Shown here one piece after another: positions 9,107 through 39,590 of a DNA stretch of 64,000 bases. Origin of the DNA: Bacteroidetes bacterium RIFCSPLOWO2_12_FULL_35_15 (GTDB lineage Bacteria > Bacteroidota > Bacteroidia > 2-12-FULL-35-15); contig MEPB01000049.1 of NCBI GenBank assembly GCA_001769385.1, forward strand, positions 1-64,000. The letters are read 5' to 3'. A program made the translations under genes and the position numbers. The notes under the pieces were generated by a model that was given only the letters and a program-made list of their open reading frames with translations, ran no database searches and was not told the DNA's origin. Each line of letters begins with the position of its first letter. Position 1 is the stretch's first letter.

Positions 9107-9802
9107 TTAGTACTTTTCGTTGTACAATTTTACCGCTTCGCGATTACATTTTTTTCTTTTCGATTTGGACACTATTGAAATAACCGGACAAGCAATTGCA
9201 GCGGCAGCTAAAATAACGCTTATTGAAACCAATCCGGAATTATTAGTTCCATTATAACTTCCCGAAGAGTAAGTGTTGAAACTATTGGCTAATGCAACCA
9301 AAGATCCTATTCCAAGTGGGATAGCGGCAAACCCAATGTATTGCATTTTATTAGCATCCTTAGCTGATTGCACAAGTCCAATAATTTGTTTGTCTTTTGT
9401 ACTCATTAAAATACGTTGCATTTCCCGTTCCCCTATTTTTCTGCCTTGATATTTATAACGGGAACCATAAGGTTCAATTTTGCTTTGCGGATTTACTGGC
9501 CCTGCATTTGGATTGTAATAATCGTTATTCGCTATTGTTTCGGGCACACTTATTTTCTGTTCTTTAACTGAAAACACTTCTTTCAATCCATTTGAATAAG
9601 TGATTTGTTTTATCTCGGATTTATTTTCAACATAGGTAGGGCCATCCTGAAAATTAAATTTTTTATACTTTATTTCTGTTGAATTTATTTCCAAAATTTT
9701 CGCTAAAACAGTATCGCCATTTATTTTGATGATGGTATCTTGAGCTTTATTTATGCTTGAAATCAACAAAAAAATTGCAAAAAGAGTTAAGATTTTTTTC
9801 AT
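9107..9802 (-). CDS. secreted/membrane protein, second copy of the tandem paralogue family
   Basis: The 231-residue protein begins MKKILTLFAIFLLIS with a signal peptide ending at NKAQ. It shows DTIIKINGDTVLAKILEINS, IKYKKFNFQDGPTYVENKS and ITYSNGLKEVF, then GEREMQRILMSTKDKQIIGL, QSAKDANKMQYIGFAAIPLG, two hydrophobic segments and the tail KCNREAVKLYNEKY. It is closest in sequence to the 8417-9100 copy. It is separated from both neighbours by exactly 6 bases. The linker between the domains (ISVPETIANNDYYNPNAG) is variable among the copies. Confidence 0.7.
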   Translation of the reverse strand: MKKILTLFAIFLLISSINKAQDTIIKINGDTVLAKILEINSTEIKYKKFNFQDGPTYVENKSEIKQITYSNGLKEVFSVKEQKISVPETIANNDYYNPNAGPVNPQSKIEPYGSRYKYQGRKIGEREMQRILMSTKDKQIIGLVQSAKDANKMQYIGFAAIPLGIGSLVALANSFNTYSSGSYNGTNNSGLVSISVILAAAAIACPVISIVSKSKRKKCNREAVKLYNEKY

Positions 9803-9808
9803 ATCACT

Positions 9809-10531
9809 TTAGTACTTTTCGTTATATAATTTTACTGCGTCATGATTATAAGTATTTCTTTTCGATTTCTGTACTCCTGAAATGATTGGGCAGGTAATGG
9901 CTCCGGCAAGAAAAAGACCACTATAAGCAAGGTCAGTATTGTTTAACCCATATCGATTTCTATTAGGGTAGGAACTGTTGTAAGAAGTCGAAGAATAAAA
10001 CATTCCTGTACTTTTTAAGAAAAAAATGCCTGATACAATGCCTAACGGAATTCCCAAAAAACCAATGAACTGCAATGCCTTTGCATCTTTTGCCTGAGCA
10101 ACTAAAGTTATAATTTTTTTATCTTTTGTTTGGTTTAGAATTTCGTATAGGTCTCGTTCAGTCAGTCTTTCATTATGATACTTGTATTGTATTCCCCATT
10201 TTTCAATTTTATTGTTTGCAATTACGGGACGATTATAATAATCACGAGGTGGTTCATTATTATTTATGATTACCTGGTTGGTTGTTGCATTAGATGTGGA
10301 TGTGAAAATTTCTTTTACTCCATTAGAATAGTTTATCTTATCAAGATTTGATTTGATCTCAATATATATTGGTCCATCCAGAAAATCGAAGCGTTTATAT
10401 TTTACTTCTGTGGGACTTATTTCTAATACTTTTGCGATAACAATGTCTCCACTTTTTTTGAAAATGGTATCTTGAGATTTCGCAGTACAAAAAGAAAGAA
10501 CCGTGACCAGGAAAAGGAATATTTTTTTCAT
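9809..10531 (-). CDS. secreted/membrane protein, first copy of the tandem paralogue family
   Basis: This first gene of the triplet (240 residues) begins MKKIFLFLVTVLSFCTAKSQ, a clear signal peptide. It has the same N-terminal domain (DTIFKKSGDIVIAKVLEISP, VKYKRFDFLDGPIYIE, INYSNGVKEIF), the middle block TERDLYEILNQTKDKKIITL, two hydrophobic helices separated by a longer Tyr/Ser-rich loop (FYSSTSYNSSYPNRNRYG) and the tail YNHDAVKLYNEKY. It is the most divergent copy. A weak promoter with TACTTTCG as -7 box lies at 10549-10556, with a TTTG 20 bases further upstream. The conserved C-terminal tail (LYNxKY) suggests a shared cytoplasmic or periplasmic contact, which is inference. Confidence 0.7.
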   Translation of the reverse strand: MKKIFLFLVTVLSFCTAKSQDTIFKKSGDIVIAKVLEISPTEVKYKRFDFLDGPIYIEIKSNLDKINYSNGVKEIFTSTSNATTNQVIINNNEPPRDYYNRPVIANNKIEKWGIQYKYHNERLTERDLYEILNQTKDKKIITLVAQAKDAKALQFIGFLGIPLGIVSGIFFLKSTGMFYSSTSYNSSYPNRNRYGLNNTDLAYSGLFLAGAITCPIISGVQKSKRNTYNHDAVKLYNEKY

Positions 10532-26287: not shown

Positions 26288-29200
26288 ATGGAAAAAGGCT
26301 ACTCCCTTCATTCATTTCTAAAATTCCGTTTATTGGGGATTTTATTTTTTATCCTTTCTGTTACTGATCTTTTTGCAGTAACTACCTATTATTCAAGGGC
26401 CAGCGGTAATTGGAATTCCAATACAAAATGGAGTACTGTTGCGTGTGGAAATGCAACAAATACAGGTACTTTCCCGGTTGCCGGGGATATTGTAATTATT
26501 TGTACCGGGCATTCTATGTCAGTAAACGTCAACTCTGCATGCGCCTCAATTACTACTCAGGGGTCAGGAAATATAGATTTCCCAACCAATACTATTACAC
26601 TTACAGTTAGTGGCGATGTTATATTGGCAGGTACTGGAGGGATAACAGCTATTGGAGGAGGGGGCAGCGCTTCCAGAGTATTGAATATTGGCGGGCAATT
26701 TATTGTTTCTGCTGGAGCAAATTTACCGCTGGGTGGATTAACAATGACAGTAACCGGAGTTTCGACAATTGATGGAATAATAACCTCTACGGATAATACA
26801 GGAAGTAAAACTTTTAATGATAATGTTAATTTAAATGCTACAGGAAGTATTTGGTTTATTGCTAATGAAACATATACAATAAATGCTAATTTGTATATGA
26901 CAAATGGTAGTATAATTGGAGGCACTTCAACAGGAATACTTATTGTTTCTGGTGCATTCAATGTGCTTTCAGCTGCAGGGGTAACAACAATTGGGCGGGC
27001 CAATATAACTATAAATGGACTTACAACCATTGATGGTACATTGTATTTTGGAACTTCAGCTTCAGGAAATAAGAGTTTTAGAGCGGTAACAGTAAATGCT
27101 ACAGGGGTATGGGATAATACGGTTGGAGAAGATCCGCGTATGAATGGAAATATTATTAACAATGGTAGTTGGATTGGAAATACCGGGGGGACTGCAGATT
27201 ACCAATTTGGTAGAACAGTAGGTGGTAGCTATACAATTACAGGAAATCCCGTTGTTTTCTCAAGATTATCCATTGAAGATGGAACAACTGTTACCAATTT
27301 AGGTACAGTGATTATTGATGGTAATGTAAATCCCGGGATAAGAAATAGAAATGGGAATGGTAATGCTACTTATAACAATGGTGATGGTATTGCGGCTGCG
27401 GTACTTTATATTCAAAATTCAGGAGGAGCGGATGGAGCAGATCTTTTGATAAATAAACTTACTTTCAACGCATCCCTGACCGGAAATACAGTTTATTATT
27501 CTCGGGGTGGAAATCAAAACATACGAATACCCGATGATGCATGTTATTATAATTTAATTTGCGGGATTAGTGGTACCAAAACCATTCAAACCGGAACGAC
27601 CGGAATTCGTAATTTGATAACAATAAAAGAAAATGCGATTGTTGATGTAGGAACAAATATCTTTGCTGATGGATGTGGAGGGACAGCCGGTTTAACTATG
27701 TTGGATAATTCGCAATTGCTTATTGCGACATGTGCAGCTACCGTTCCTGAATTAACAGGAACTTATACTTTAACAGGTGGATCCATAACACTTAATGGAA
27801 ATTGTGCTCAAACCCTCAGAGGAGGAGTTGCTTATAAAGATTTGATTTTTAGCGGTAATAACCCGGCATCTTCTGTAGATATGACCGGAGTGATTGCTAT
27901 TAATGGCAATCTTACAATTTCCGGTCAAGAAATCATTACAGGGAATTCTGTTTTTACAATGGATTGTTTAAAAACATTTACCTACTCCTCAGCTCGAAAC
28001 ACAACAATTTCAGCGAATATGAACATCGGAAGCTTTTCGCAGACAGGTACAGGAACTTTTAATGATGGAGGTAATACTATAACAGTCTGCGGTGCTTCAT
28101 GGATACGTACGGCAGGAACATATTCAGCTTCTGGCACTGTGATTTTTAATGGAATTACAACCATGAGTGGCACTTCGACTACAACGTTTAATAATGTAAT
28201 AATTAATCCTGCTAAAACACTTATTGCCGACCCAAATACAATGGAAGTTGCAGGACCTGATTTTACAAATGATGGTACATTTACTCATAATAATGGTACC
28301 GTAACATTTAATGGAGCAGGTACTACTTTGATTTCGGGTGCATCCTTCACTACATTTAATCATTTTACCATTAGTTCCGGAACAGTAAAGGGACATCCGA
28401 CAGAAATGAGTATTAATGGAAATTTTACAAACAATAGTGCTTTTAATCATAATTCCGGCAAGGTGATATTTAGTGGTAGTGCCGCTCAATCCATTTCTGG
28501 TACAACTTCGCCAACAGGTTTTGGCAGGCTTGAAATAAATAAAACCATTGCTACGGTTCTTACACAAAATTTAGCAGATGTTACGGTGAAATTTTTATTC
28601 ACCATGACAGAAGGAATTTTTTCAGTTGGTACCAACACACTTACCGGTTCAATGGCATGTGGTTTTACAGCAACCGGAGGTGATCTGCAAATTGCTAAAT
28701 TAGCTACTCTTGTTCCTGAATTCAATAATCCATTTGCAATTACAGGAGGTACAGTAACATTAAATGGTGCAGGAGATCAGACATTAAAAACATCTCCAAC
28801 AGGTGCGGATACATATCATAATCTTGTTTTTTCAACCAGCGGAATAAAAACAATAACAGGGTTACTAACCATTAATGGAGATGTCACTGTTTCGGGAACA
28901 GCAACGTTGACAGCTAATTCAAATTTTATACAAAATTCTTCAAAATTATTCAGTTATAATTCTACCGGAGTCACAACTTTAACATCCGCAGTGGCAGTTA
29001 CAGTTGGAAGTTACTCTCAAACAGCAGGTACTTTCAATATCAATACAAATGCCGCCAATGTATTTTCTGTTAGTGGTGCATCATGGAATAAATCAGGAGG
29101 TACTTTTACTAATACGAATCCATCCAAAGTGATATTTAATGCAGCAGTGGCCCAAGTTTTCACTGATAACGGGACATTATTTGCTAATGTTGAAATTAAT

Positions 29201-30394
29201 AATGTGAACCATTTATCGTTGAATAGTAATATAAGTATTTCTACCAATCTAATTTTCACATTAGGAAATATTACAACCGGGATTAATAAAGCTATTCTTA
29301 CAACAAATGCAACTGCTGTGACCGGAGCTTCACAGATAACCGGTTTTGTGGATGGTAATTTTCAAAAATATATATCCTCAAGTCCAAAAACGTTTGAAAT
29401 AGGTTCCGGTGGAAATTATGCTCCACTAAACTTAATATTTGCAAGCATCACTACTGCAGGAAATCTTGTTTGTTCAACTACTCCAAACGACCATGTTGAT
29501 ATGAATGCTTCGGATATAGATCCAAACAAAACAATAAATAGATATTGGACAATTGATTTTGCTACTTTAGTTGTAACAACCTTTGACCCGACATTTAACT
29601 ACCCTAGTACTGATGTAGATGCAGGGGCTGATGTTACTGTTTTTGGAGCACAGCAATACAATGCAATAGCCTGGAGTAATCTTACTGTTTCAGGTACTCC
29701 TACTACTACGGCAACCATTCTTACAGGTGTTGCCGGGACTTCTGCTCCTACTGCAAGAGATTATATTATTGGAGAAAGATTTAATCCTAATGGTCTTTAC
29801 AATGCTGTAACCGGGGCAATGAACTGGAATCTTGCTTCCAACTGGATCAGATACAGAACCGGGCAAATTATTTCGACATTAGGCGATCCGATTATTTTAG
29901 GAGTGAGTACTATTTTTACAACTGAAATAGTTCCAGGTGATGTAATATTATCACAAAACACACCCGGAGTAGTTCTTGGAACCGTATTGTCAGTTGATAC
30001 TGATGGCCAAATAACATTAACTGCCGGAGCTTCAGCAACTACAGCCTTTTCATATGGTATCCAGGCAATCCCCGGAATCACTGATGAAGTGAATATAGGC
30101 AATCCATATATTGCGGGTGCTGCTGTGGATGTGACTCTTGATATTCCTTCTACTATTTACAAATTGATTTTTACTAGAATGGCTTTTTCAAATACATTAA
30201 TTCATGGAGCTGCAAATGCATTAACGATAACAAATAATGCCGTATTAAACCAGCCTTCCGGTGTTTTTACCAATTTATGGAATATTGCAGCAGGTTCAGC
30301 AAGTTTAGGGGGAAATCTGATGATTGGCAGTAACGATGCCACTGCTTCTCGTATTGCAAAAGTAATGATGACAACCGGGACTTTAACTATTTAA
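26288..30394 (+). CDS. giant T9SS-exported repeat protein, N-terminal part (ends at in-frame TAA)
   Basis: The first 1368 codons start with a signal peptide (LRFLLG-type hydrophobic core ending near TDLFAV) and TYYSRASGNWNSNTKWSTVA, a segment typical of Bacteroidota surface proteins with beta-helical repeats. The rest is Asn/Thr/Gly/Ser-rich with recurring units such as VTFNGAGTTLISG, GNFTNNSAFNHNSGKVIFSG and TLNGAGDQTLKTSPTGADTY. The composition predicts a parallel beta-helix adhesin or shell protein on the cell surface. The frame stops at TAA (30392-30394) after MMTTGTLTI and resumes in the same frame 18 bases later. Alone it lacks any sorting domain, so it should not be attached or exported by T9SS. 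Confidence 0.75.
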   Translation: MEKGYSLHSFLKFRLLGILFFILSVTDLFAVTTYYSRASGNWNSNTKWSTVACGNATNTGTFPVAGDIVIICTGHSMSVNVNSACASITTQGSGNIDFPTNTITLTVSGDVILAGTGGITAIGGGGSASRVLNIGGQFIVSAGANLPLGGLTMTVTGVSTIDGIITSTDNTGSKTFNDNVNLNATGSIWFIANETYTINANLYMTNGSIIGGTSTGILIVSGAFNVLSAAGVTTIGRANITINGLTTIDGTLYFGTSASGNKSFRAVTVNATGVWDNTVGEDPRMNGNIINNGSWIGNTGGTADYQFGRTVGGSYTITGNPVVFSRLSIEDGTTVTNLGTVIIDGNVNPGIRNRNGNGNATYNNGDGIAAAVLYIQNSGGADGADLLINKLTFNASLTGNTVYYSRGGNQNIRIPDDACYYNLICGISGTKTIQTGTTGIRNLITIKENAIVDVGTNIFADGCGGTAGLTMLDNSQLLIATCAATVPELTGTYTLTGGSITLNGNCAQTLRGGVAYKDLIFSGNNPASSVDMTGVIAINGNLTISGQEIITGNSVFTMDCLKTFTYSSARNTTISANMNIGSFSQTGTGTFNDGGNTITVCGASWIRTAGTYSASGTVIFNGITTMSGTSTTTFNNVIINPAKTLIADPNTMEVAGPDFTNDGTFTHNNGTVTFNGAGTTLISGASFTTFNHFTISSGTVKGHPTEMSINGNFTNNSAFNHNSGKVIFSGSAAQSISGTTSPTGFGRLEINKTIATVLTQNLADVTVKFLFTMTEGIFSVGTNTLTGSMACGFTATGGDLQIAKLATLVPEFNNPFAITGGTVTLNGAGDQTLKTSPTGADTYHNLVFSTSGIKTITGLLTINGDVTVSGTATLTANSNFIQNSSKLFSYNSTGVTTLTSAVAVTVGSYSQTAGTFNINTNAANVFSVSGASWNKSGGTFTNTNPSKVIFNAAVAQVFTDNGTLFANVEINNVNHLSLNSNISISTNLIFTLGNITTGINKAILTTNATAVTGASQITGFVDGNFQKYISSSPKTFEIGSGGNYAPLNLIFASITTAGNLVCSTTPNDHVDMNASDIDPNKTINRYWTIDFATLVVTTFDPTFNYPSTDVDAGADVTVFGAQQYNAIAWSNLTVSGTPTTTATILTGVAGTSAPTARDYIIGERFNPNGLYNAVTGAMNWNLASNWIRYRTGQIISTLGDPIILGVSTIFTTEIVPGDVILSQNTPGVVLGTVLSVDTDGQITLTAGASATTAFSYGIQAIPGITDEVNIGNPYIAGAAVDVTLDIPSTIYKLIFTRMAFSNTLIHGAANALTITNNAVLNQPSGVFTNLWNIAAGSASLGGNLMIGSNDATASRIAKVMMTTGTLTI

Positions 30395-30412
30395 ACTAAT
30401 CTTGTCTTTTTT

Positions 30413-33097
30413 ATGTCTCCAAATGCTGCTGCAGCTGCAAATGCGGTTATGGACCTGAGTGGAGGGGCGTGTACACTTAATATGTCTGGTAATTTTACAT
30501 TAACAAATACCGGAAATAATTGGGGAACTTTTACTCCGGGTGCTTCAAGCATAGTAAATTATAACAAATCCAATGCAAGCACCACTACCCAAATTATTAA
30601 TTTAACCACTATTGCACCTGCTGTTACTTATGCTAATCTCAATCTTAACAATACCAGTTTGAATACAAGCACAGGAAAACTCGGTGCTACAATAAGCAAG
30701 CCCATTACTGCAGCGATGATTACAGGAAACATGAGAATACAAAGCGGTAAATTTTATACAACAACTTTTGCGATAGCTGGGAATGCAGGAAAGATTTTTG
30801 AGGTTGCAGATTCAGCTATATTTGAACTAACCGGAACATCAGCATTTCCTACCGGTTTTACAATCTTCACCTTTGGCCCAAAAAGTATTACACAATATCA
30901 TCAAACTAATTTTCAATGGATTAAGGTCATAGCCGCTCCAGGCTATGGACATTTACAGTTGCAACCTTCCGCAACAATAAATCACTCATTCCAAACAGGA
31001 ACAACTCTTGTGCAAGGTAATCTTGATCTAGGGAACGGTACAAATATTGTGACATTAAACTCAGGGGTAGCAGCTATTACCGTTAGTGTAACCGGAAATA
31101 TAAAAATATTTCCAAATGCTACTTTTGATATTACCAACTTTACGAATACTCCTGCCGTTAGAAGCGATGGCGACTGGACCAATAATGGCGGGACATTTAC
31201 CCCGGGCGTAAGAACTGTTACCTTTAATGGAACCGGAGCGCAACAGATAAATGGAACACCTGCTTCTCAAACATTCTATAATGTAATTGTTGCAAAAACA
31301 GCTGGGACAACTTTGTCGGTTGGAGGGAGTACCACTACTTTAACTACAAATAATTTGACAATAAATTCCGGTACCTTAAGTTCACCGGCTACGTTAAATA
31401 TTAATTCTACCGATAATGCTGTGTTAACACTTGCCGCAGCAGGAAACATGGATGGCAATGCTTCTTCCATTAGTATTACAGGAAACTGGATAAATAACGG
31501 AGGCGTATTTAATGCTGGAACAAGTTCAGTTAATTTTACCGGATTAACAGCTCGTCAGATTAATGGTTCAGCTGTTGCACAAACATTTAATAACATAGTT
31601 ATCAATAAAACTAACGTAACAATAAGCACTGGTGGAAGTACAACAACTATCACATCCAATGATTTTACATTATCCGATGGTAATTATACAGCTCCTGCGA
31701 CAATGAATATTAATGGTAATATGCTGGTTAATGGAACCAGTGGAGCGGATACATATACAGGTGGAACAAATACAAATGTTTCGGGTCATATTACTTTTAA
31801 TACAGGAGCTTTGACCTGGGGAACCAATGTTGTTTTAAATGGTACCACAGCTCAAACGGTAAATGGTACCTCTACCATTCCTAACTTTACTAATTTTAGA
31901 ATTAACAATACTGATGATTTAACTGGAAATGCTGTTACAGTAAACAAACCAATTACAGTTAATGGGGTGTTCACACTTACTGATGGCCACCTAAAAACTA
32001 CTGCAACAAATATTATTACTCTTGGGGCTGCCGCATCAGTTATACTTAATGCACCTGTAACACAAGATAGTAGTTTTGTCAGAGGGCCAATGGCACATTT
32101 GCAAAATGCTACCGGTAGTGTTACAAAAGTTTATCCTGTTGGTGCGAATGATAATTTGTTGCACCGGGCAGATTTGACAATAAATCATAGTGTTGCAGCA
32201 GCAACAACTTATACCGCTGAATATCTCTGTGTCTCTGCTTTACTCATGGGATGGACGCTTCCTGCAACCCTGGATGCCGTTTCCAACTATGGACAATGGG
32301 ATATCACTAAATCCGGAGCATCTACATTGGGAACAGGATCGGTAAAGTTGTATTACAGGACTCAGGATGCTATTACTACTCCTGCTGATCTTAGAGTTGC
32401 AAAAGGGAACCCTAACGCCTGGACAGATATTGGAGGTGTTGGAACTACCGTTCCTGAAGGAGATATTACTTCTACTATTAATTTTACAACTTTCAGTCGA
32501 TTCGCGTTAGCAAATAAATTGGGAGGTTCAAATCCTTTGCCTATTGAACTTCTTACTTTTGATGCTAAACCAAATAATGAAATTGTTGATTTAAATTGGA
32601 CAACCGCCTCAGAAAGCAATAATGATTATTTTACAATTGAAAAAACATTAGATGGTACTAATTTCGAACTAGTTGAAAAAGTAAATGGGGCAGGTAATAG
32701 CACTTCTGTTTTAAACTATTCAACGAAAGATACTCATCCTTATGAAGGTGTGTCGTACTATCGATTAAAACAAACAGATTTTAATGGCGCTTATACTTAT
32801 TCCAACCTGGTGTCTGTGGAGTTTAAGGCGAATGCTGAATTTTCATTTAATGTGTATCCTAATCCGAATGAAGGTTCATCAATTAATTTAGCGCTCAAGG
32901 CAAATAGAGGCGAGGAAGTATTGGTTGTGGTATATGATGTAACGGGTAAACAAAGTTATTCAAAGATAATTGTTACCGAAGATAATGGCGAACAGGTATA
33001 TGCCATCGATCCTTCTCAAAAATTATCACCGGGTGTTTATTTGATTACAGGAACTACTAATCAAAGTATTTATAGCAAAAAACTCATTGTTAAATAA
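30413..33097 (+). CDS. giant T9SS-exported repeat protein, C-terminal part with sorting domain
   Basis: These 894 codons are in the same frame as the preceding part and separated from it only by TAA and six sense codons. The first Met (MSPNAAAAANAVMD) has no signal peptide. Repeats continue (VTFNGTGAQQINGTPASQTF; VNFTGLTARQINGSAVAQTF), then LPIELLTFDAKPNNEIVDLN with a fibronectin-like stretch, and a type A T9SS sorting domain (FSFNVYPNPNEGSSINLALK ... GVYLITGTTNQSIYSKKLIVK). Together the two parts give about 2270 residues carrying both the Sec signal and the sorting signal, so the original gene was surely one. A terminator follows at 33151-33180. Confidence 0.75.
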   Translation: MSPNAAAAANAVMDLSGGACTLNMSGNFTLTNTGNNWGTFTPGASSIVNYNKSNASTTTQIINLTTIAPAVTYANLNLNNTSLNTSTGKLGATISKPITAAMITGNMRIQSGKFYTTTFAIAGNAGKIFEVADSAIFELTGTSAFPTGFTIFTFGPKSITQYHQTNFQWIKVIAAPGYGHLQLQPSATINHSFQTGTTLVQGNLDLGNGTNIVTLNSGVAAITVSVTGNIKIFPNATFDITNFTNTPAVRSDGDWTNNGGTFTPGVRTVTFNGTGAQQINGTPASQTFYNVIVAKTAGTTLSVGGSTTTLTTNNLTINSGTLSSPATLNINSTDNAVLTLAAAGNMDGNASSISITGNWINNGGVFNAGTSSVNFTGLTARQINGSAVAQTFNNIVINKTNVTISTGGSTTTITSNDFTLSDGNYTAPATMNINGNMLVNGTSGADTYTGGTNTNVSGHITFNTGALTWGTNVVLNGTTAQTVNGTSTIPNFTNFRINNTDDLTGNAVTVNKPITVNGVFTLTDGHLKTTATNIITLGAAASVILNAPVTQDSSFVRGPMAHLQNATGSVTKVYPVGANDNLLHRADLTINHSVAAATTYTAEYLCVSALLMGWTLPATLDAVSNYGQWDITKSGASTLGTGSVKLYYRTQDAITTPADLRVAKGNPNAWTDIGGVGTTVPEGDITSTINFTTFSRFALANKLGGSNPLPIELLTFDAKPNNEIVDLNWTTASESNNDYFTIEKTLDGTNFELVEKVNGAGNSTSVLNYSTKDTHPYEGVSYYRLKQTDFNGAYTYSNLVSVEFKANAEFSFNVYPNPNEGSSINLALKANRGEEVLVVVYDVTGKQSYSKIIVTEDNGEQVYAIDPSQKLSPGVYLITGTTNQSIYSKKLIVK

Positions 33098-33148
33098 TAT
33101 TTTTAAAATAATTTCATTAAAACATTCTTGAATATATTTTTAATAACG

Positions 33149-33180
33149 AAAAGCTCTTGATAATATCAAGGGCTTTTTTA
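33149..33180 (+). terminator. intrinsic terminator of the giant T9SS gene
   Basis: AAGCTCTTGA-TAATA-TCAAGGGCTT followed by TTTTTA forms a typical hairpin with U tail, about 55 bases after the stop codon. Confidence 0.8.
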
Positions 33181-38159: not shown

Positions 38160-39242
38160 CTATTTCGAAATTTCCATTTTCACTTTTTTGTTCTTGATCT
38201 TTTCATTTTTAATTAAACTGAGAACCGAGTCAATTTTTTTTCTATTAACAGCAGCATAGGAAGAAAAGTCAAGCACCTCGATCAATCCCAATTCGTCTTT
38301 TTTCAATTCCCCTTTTTGAAGCAGCATTCCAACAATATCCATTTTATTGATCTTGTCTTTTTTCCCGGCAGCAATGTAAAGTGTGCACCATGGTGTGTTT
38401 TCCGGAATCTTGTTTTCCTTTGGTAAAACTTCCGGGATAGGAGTTTCCTTGATAAAAGGAGGAATATGTTCACCTGCTCCTAAAATCAAATAAGCTGTTC
38501 CTTTAGCGTTCATACGTGCTGTACGACCATTCCGATGTATAAAAACATCCTCGGTATGCGGCAATTGATAATGAATAATGTTTTCAATTTCCGGAATATC
38601 CAATCCGCGGGAGGCAAGATCTGTAGTAATTAAAATCCGATAGGTTCCATTTCTGAATTTTATCAAAGCTCGTTCTCTGTCTTCTTGCTCCATTTTTCCA
38701 TGAAATGTTCCATGTATCAAACCTTTCTCTTTCAGTAATTCACTGAAACGATCAACGGCATCCCTGTGATTACAAAACACAAGAGTAGCTGTGTTACCTA
38801 ATTTACATATCAAAGCAAATAAAGCTTCTATTTTATCTTTTTCTTCAGTTGTTACAATTTTTAATTTTAAACCTTCGGCTTTTGTAGGAGTTTTACTTAA
38901 ATAATTTAATTCAATCGGATCGTTAATTCCGGTGAATGATGGAATCTCCTTCATTTTTGTGGCAGAGGTCAACATCCGTTTTTTTATTTTTTTTAACTGA
39001 TAAATAATGTATGACATGTCTTCCTGAAAACCAAATTCAAGTGCTTTATCAAATTCATCCAGTACTAAAGAGGTTATGGTTGATGTATCCACATTTTTAT
39101 TCCGGATATGAAATGCAATTCTGCCAGGTGTTCCGATAAGTAATGCCGGTGCTTGTTCCAGGTTATGTTTTTCTGTTCGGGTAGAATGACCACCATAACA
39201 ACAATTCACTTTAAATCCTGTTCCCATTTGTTTAAAAACCTG
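38160..39242 (-). CDS. DbpA-like DEAD-box RNA helicase, C-terminal part (after in-frame TAA)
   Basis: These codons continue the helicase reading frame directly after a TAA at 39243-39245. The first internal ATG is at 39227, which would give 355 residues. Motifs present: GTPGRI, the Walker B variant LDEFDKALEF (DEFD instead of DEAD, usual in this Bacteroidota subgroup), LTSATKM, the second RecA domain with ITTDLASRGLDIP and HRNGRTARM, and a C-terminal DbpA-type RNA-binding domain (WCTLYIAAGKKDKINKMDIV). It lacks motif I, so this part alone cannot bind ATP properly. DbpA-type helicases act on 23S rRNA hairpin 92 during ribosome assembly. Confidence 0.75.
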   Translation of the reverse strand, partial: QVFKQMGTGFKVNCCYGGHSTRTEKHNLEQAPALLIGTPGRIAFHIRNKNVDTSTITSLVLDEFDKALEFGFQEDMSYIIYQLKKIKKRMLTSATKMKEIPSFTGINDPIELNYLSKTPTKAEGLKLKIVTTEEKDKIEALFALICKLGNTATLVFCNHRDAVDRFSELLKEKGLIHGTFHGKMEQEDRERALIKFRNGTYRILITTDLASRGLDIPEIENIIHYQLPHTEDVFIHRNGRTARMNAKGTAYLILGAGEHIPPFIKETPIPEVLPKENKIPENTPWCTLYIAAGKKDKINKMDIVGMLLQKGELKKDELGLIEVLDFSSYAAVNRKKIDSVLSLIKNEKIKNKKVKMEISK

Positions 39243-39470
39243 TTAGATCTGCAAACCTAATTCACGGGAAGGTACCAAGACCAATGCCTGTACGCCCGTT
39301 TTGTTTTTATCCATTTGTGTTAACAAAGGCAATAAAAAACCGAGGGTCTTTCCTGATCCGGTAGGAGAAAGTAATACAACATCATTTGCTTTTTTTGCTG
39401 CTTCAATTGAAGCAATTTGCATTTCATTTAAGGAAGAAATTTTTAAATTCTCCAGCACTTTTTGTATCAT
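39243..39470 (-). CDS. DbpA-like DEAD-box RNA helicase, N-terminal fragment (ends at in-frame TAA)
   Basis: The fragment of 75 residues starts MIQKVLENLKISSLNEMQIA at ATG 39470. It contains the Q motif region and motif I (LLSPTGSGKTLGFLLPLL), then LVLVPSRELGLQI, and stops at TAA. The frame goes on uninterrupted with QVFKQMGTGFKVNCCYGGH, which is what follows in intact homologues, usually as LQIEQVFKKMG. The TAA thus replaces a probable Glu codon GAA by one G-to-T change. A -7 box TACCTTTG lies 18 bases upstream of the ATG, which supports this start over earlier in-frame Met codons. Confidence 0.7.
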   Translation of the reverse strand: MIQKVLENLKISSLNEMQIASIEAAKKANDVVLLSPTGSGKTLGFLLPLLTQMDKNKTGVQALVLVPSRELGLQI

Positions 39471-39487
39471 CCTTATTAATTTGATCC

Positions 39488-39495
39488 CAAAGGTA
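39488..39495 (-). promoter_or_regulatory. -7 promoter box of the helicase gene (TACCTTTG)
   Basis: The minus strand reads TACCTTTG, an exact TAnnTTTG match 18 bases before the helicase ATG at 39470. Confidence 0.6.
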
Positions 39496-39541
39496 CGCTT
39501 ATTATTGAGGGTAAAAGAAGAACAAAAAATGAAAAAATCAT

Positions 39542-39549
39542 TACATTTG
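39542..39549 (+). promoter_or_regulatory. -7 promoter box of the 39591 T9SS gene (TACATTTG)
   Basis: TACATTTG matches the consensus and gives a leader of about 35 bases before the ATG at 39591. It is divergent from the helicase promoter, about 50 bases away. Confidence 0.5.
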
Positions 39550-39590
39550 AATAAATTTATTTGGAACACAAACAATTAAAAAATAATATC

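Follow-up and report, generated by a model that had tools for sequence, protein, structure and literature searches.

The T9SS takes up type A cargo proteins by their C-terminal domain, after a Sec signal peptide has brought them to the periplasm (PMC10202324, PMC12618676). The closest counterparts of the gene described here are proteins with the type A C-terminal domain (TIGR04183/PF18962). The gene lies in the window, the whole stretch of 64,000 nucleotides analysed, at positions 1 to 64,000 of contig MEPB01000049.1 (C49) from Bacteroidetes bacterium RIFCSPLOWO2_12_FULL_35_15. It shares with them a Sec-like N-terminus, low-complexity repeats, a type A C-terminus and the presence of SprA in the genome; unlike them, it has an in-frame TAA that puts the signal peptide and the sorting domain on different open reading frames (ORFs). 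Single-lesion nonsense pseudogenes, whether real or created in assembly, resemble the locus in having one internal stop, an otherwise intact frame and intact orthologues. They are often assembly artefacts, notably at low coverage or with poor reads (PMC11017572). The present case departs from them in that three such genes share one contig, and is otherwise not distinctive. Conserved in-frame stops with suspected readthrough also have a preserved downstream frame, but for the published candidates sharing between species was required (PMC7918605); those stops are common to two or more species, whereas the stop in the surface gene occurs in a single genome. Nonsense interruption of this type is an ordinary event and calls for no new mechanism.

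An in-frame TAA interrupts a T9SS surface-protein gene

The initial annotation had placed a TAA between a 1368-codon ORF and its in-frame continuation of 894 codons, with a Sec signal in the first part and a T9SS sorting domain in the second. Coordinates and translation agree with the former statement; profile matches to TIGR04183 and PF18962 and inspection of the N-terminus bear out the latter. The features of the gene are as follows.

26288..30394, + strand: part 1 of the surface-protein gene, 1368 aa to the TAA, signal-peptide-like N-terminus
30392..30394, + strand: in-frame TAA, a sense codon (S, K, V or G) in the four orthologues
30395..33097, + strand: part 2, the same frame continued, 900 codons from stop to stop, without a signal peptide
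30410..30424, + strand: insertion of 3-4 codons (around FMSPN) directly 3' of the stop, which none of the four orthologues has
32852..33094, + strand: T9SS type A sorting domain (TIGR04183/PF18962)
33148..33178, + strand: terminator-like hairpin with a T tail, 3' of the whole frame, the sole such site found

Part 1 opens with the Sec-like segment MEKGYSLHSFLKFRLLGILFFILSVTDLFA, in which basic residues are followed by a hydrophobic stretch, continues into a long repeat region rich in Ser/Thr/Asn/Gly and ends in MMTTGTLTI before the TAA. It gave no match to Pfam or NCBIfam. The first residues after the internal stop, in the same frame, are TNLVFFMSPNAAAAANAV. The earliest ATG of part 2, at 30413, lies 18 bases past the stop and gives 894 aa; the frame is closed by a TAA at 33095-33097. 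Part 2 matched TIGR04183 with an E-value of 2.9e-10 (40 bits, cut-off 23) and PF18962 with an E-value of 4.4e-8 (33.7 bits, cut-off 27). No start codon with a signal-like segment behind it was found within its first 220 codons, and the Sec signal-like segment and the sorting domain thus stand on separate ORFs and not on the same polypeptide. A random frame with the base composition of part 2 would stay open over 900 codons with a probability of ~2e-28, which excludes a chance open frame. The uninterrupted product is a T9SS type A surface protein of roughly 2270 residues. Judged by its composition, it is probably a β-rich adhesin-like repeat protein. AlphaFold2 returned an all-beta model of the junction region with a mean pLDDT of 48.8, too poor to use, and a PDB sequence search gave no match.

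Orthologues are uninterrupted and the stop is young

A search of 59 relatives recovered three full-length orthologues (in G042, G024 and G040), and a search of further genome contigs added L051 from Bacteroidetes bacterium GWA2_32_17. Overall identity to the surface protein was about 45-56%, being 56% for L051 (63% close to the junction) and ~46% for the other three. The initial annotation had named an orthologue encoded as two separate genes as the observation that would count against a single gene; all four orthologues proved to be one open frame of 2169-2573 codons without a stop, running from the signal peptide, seen by inspection as a hydrophobic N-terminal segment, through to the sorting domain. 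Since these four are uninterrupted, the locus is one gene carrying a stop. The gene is patchily distributed: few of the sampled genomes of the genus, class or phylum matched the junction region, and none of these matches contained a stop except this genome's own.

The same annotation had attributed the split to a single nonsense change instead of two genes. The one-gene part of that proposal stands; a single change is plausible, though no one-step precursor codon was found. At the position of the stop the orthologues differ (Ser AGC, Lys AAG, Val GTA and Gly GGA), none of the four codons being one step from TAA, and with such variability neither the ancestral codon nor a one-step origin can be proved for this site.

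The age of the stop was approached with a relative-rate test of the surface gene against L051, in which each of the other three orthologues served as outgroup. In part 2, changes unique to this genome numbered 107, 107 and 125, against 136, 165 and 138 for L051; the corresponding numbers in part 1 were 168, 147 and 130 against 105, 95 and 91. Part 1 has therefore evolved somewhat faster than its counterpart in L051 whereas part 2 has not, the reverse of the decay expected past a stop. Nor did the 900 codons of part 2 contain a second stop or a frameshift. With neither acceleration nor extra lesions, part 2 shows no relaxed constraint, as expected if the stop is recent, and we consider the stop young on these grounds. 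We hold with high confidence that a single gene bears a young stop here, be it real or artefactual, as opposed to two genes or a case of recoding.

A mid-gene TAA also splits a helicase and a peptidase gene of this contig

We screened 1.99 Mb of this genome (16 contigs) for stops with coding sequence directly on each side. The screen required at least 50 codons per flank and was blind to frameshifts, so that its yield is a lower bound. Three clear mid-gene TAAs were obtained, that of the surface gene (30392) and two more, in a DEAD-box helicase (C49:39243) and an M16 peptidase (C49:125941); C49 thus holds two further genes with the same lesion.

38160..39575, - strand, inside the window: DEAD-box helicase (DbpA type) split by an in-frame TAA at 39243-39245
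C49:125941-125943, outside the window on the same contig (locus L200): in-frame TAA splitting an M16 peptidase

All three stops fall on C49, which accounts for 220 of the 1993 kb, and none on the 15 other contigs; the probability that three random events fall on any one contig is ~0.0075, a figure calculated post hoc. The helicase TAA lies just past an SRELGLQI motif, at a position occupied by Glu (GAA/GAG) in 19/19 relatives, and is the sole change at columns invariant in these relatives. At the peptidase stop, 18 of 19 relatives have Ser (TCN) and one has Ala. Each of the three genes has an internal stop where its orthologues have a sense codon, one mark of a nonsense pseudogene. The Pfam DEAD and Peptidase_M16_C alignments span the helicase and peptidase stops, respectively. 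Helicase matches were found in 30 of 36 genus genomes and are uninterrupted in all but this one; peptidase matches, present in 36/36, are intact except for this genome's own and for a TAG flag in a short G022 fragment. On either side of both stops, dN/dS against the nearest relative was ~0.04-0.07, values that are approximate with synonymous sites near saturation. Nonsense alleles are hence not peculiar to the surface gene, since two other genes carry equally young TAAs.

If they arose in single steps, both changes to TAA, from Glu GAA/GAG and from Ser TCA, belong to the G:C to T:A transversions, a class tied to oxidised guanine (PMC12390751, PMC8748355). About 33% of all one-step routes to TAA belong to this class, and two of two therefore mean little. 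Loss of MutY, which could have produced a mutator, was discarded because MutY is intact; two TAA flags in weaker homologues turned out to be ordinary terminal stops. Elsewhere in the genome, a gene at C97:8708-9593 matches a protein of G010 in three frames and is likely a frameshifted gene or one with assembly indels.

Two genes, readthrough or a sequence error

Two genes, a secreted 1368-aa protein followed by a separate 894-aa T9SS protein, could in principle account for the ORFs, and the ATG 18 bases 3' of the stop would suit them. Such an arrangement is ruled out by the four fused orthologues and is the least probable of all the explanations weighed here: part 2 lacks a signal peptide, coding-like scores on both flanks show coding sequence running straight across the TAA, no terminator flanks the internal stop, and promoter-like matches near it stay at the level of shuffled sequence, that is, at chance. 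Readthrough at some rate, yielding a little full-length surface protein, accords with the full preservation of the downstream frame, with reports of bacterial in-frame stops under purifying selection (PMC7918605) and with the high readthrough that stress can induce in E. coli (PMC11126739), but the preserved frame is equally expected under a young stop. The stop shows no conservation, as no other genome shares the TAA. TAA is moreover the main terminator, ending 570 of 777 long ORF segments and closing the surface-gene frame as well, and these counts also speak against a reassignment of TAA. The upstream bases CTATT are T-rich, a context that reduces readthrough in E. coli (PMC11126739), and a scan of 2.0 of the 5.4 Mb turned up no UUA-anticodon tRNA. 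We therefore judge readthrough very unlikely. More improbable still is that suppression or readthrough of UAA reaches useful levels, which would let the strain tolerate its fresh TAAs in the surface-protein, RNA helicase and peptidase genes and would make these nonsense alleles functional or subject to conditional switching. A programmed frameshift at the TTTAAAC heptamer over the stop was rejected, as the frame is the same on both sides and the heptamer is out of slippery register.

With one gene and a young stop as the preferred reading, the question becomes whether the TAA is real. Among the four causes that the initial annotation had left open, readthrough is disfavoured, which leaves recent inactivation, strain variation and assembly error. 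We give an even chance to a stop that the organism really has, produced in the assembled strain by a very recent nonsense substitution. A sequencing or assembly error, or a minority-strain allele in the consensus of an organism whose gene is intact, is a serious rival because the TAAs cluster on one contig and no other damage accompanies them; we put its probability somewhat short of even. The assembly is a draft of 110 contigs. Each of the three TAAs on C49 stands alone in a gene with no other damage, as in the single-lesion pseudogenes that are frequently artefacts (PMC11017572); the helicase and the peptidase are widely conserved and intact in nearly all relatives recovered, and both sites with a clear ancestral codon show G:C to T:A. 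Low coverage seems unlikely, however, for a 220-kb contig, and the transversion class is frequent among one-step routes to TAA regardless of cause. Comparison of 57 C49 genes with 400 kb of G010 gave the helicase stop as the only convincing internal stop, so that C49 is not generally error-ridden. The clustering on C49, the conserved targets and the lack of other damage fit an error or very young alleles alike.

Consequences for the T9SS product

SprA is intact in this genome (TIGR04189, 2614 bits), and on this basis we took the T9SS machinery to be present. At least 150 genes encode a type A sorting domain, a number that comes from scoring the best 150 of 344 candidates; the T9SS cargo set of this genome is thus very large. 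From the interrupted gene, the 1368-aa product would enter the periplasm through Sec and be stranded there, with no T9SS export or anchoring for lack of a sorting domain. If made at all, from the ATG at 30413, the 894-aa remainder would stay in the cytoplasm for want of a signal peptide. Because neither product unites the signal peptide with the sorting domain, the interrupted allele would be null. Its loss may be tolerable, given the intact SprA and the at least 150 sorting-domain genes.

A real stop would show a surface-protein gene caught in the act of being switched off in one lineage, a frequent way for large adhesin families to vary. An error would mean that the annotation of C49 holds false splits, with three genes appearing as fragments, of which two are widely conserved across the genus.

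Elsewhere in the window, on the - strand, two adjacent similar ORFs of 231 and 240 aa (9107-9802 and 9809-10531) have near-identical ends and starts (KLYNEKY ... NKAQDTI) and probably arose by tandem duplication.
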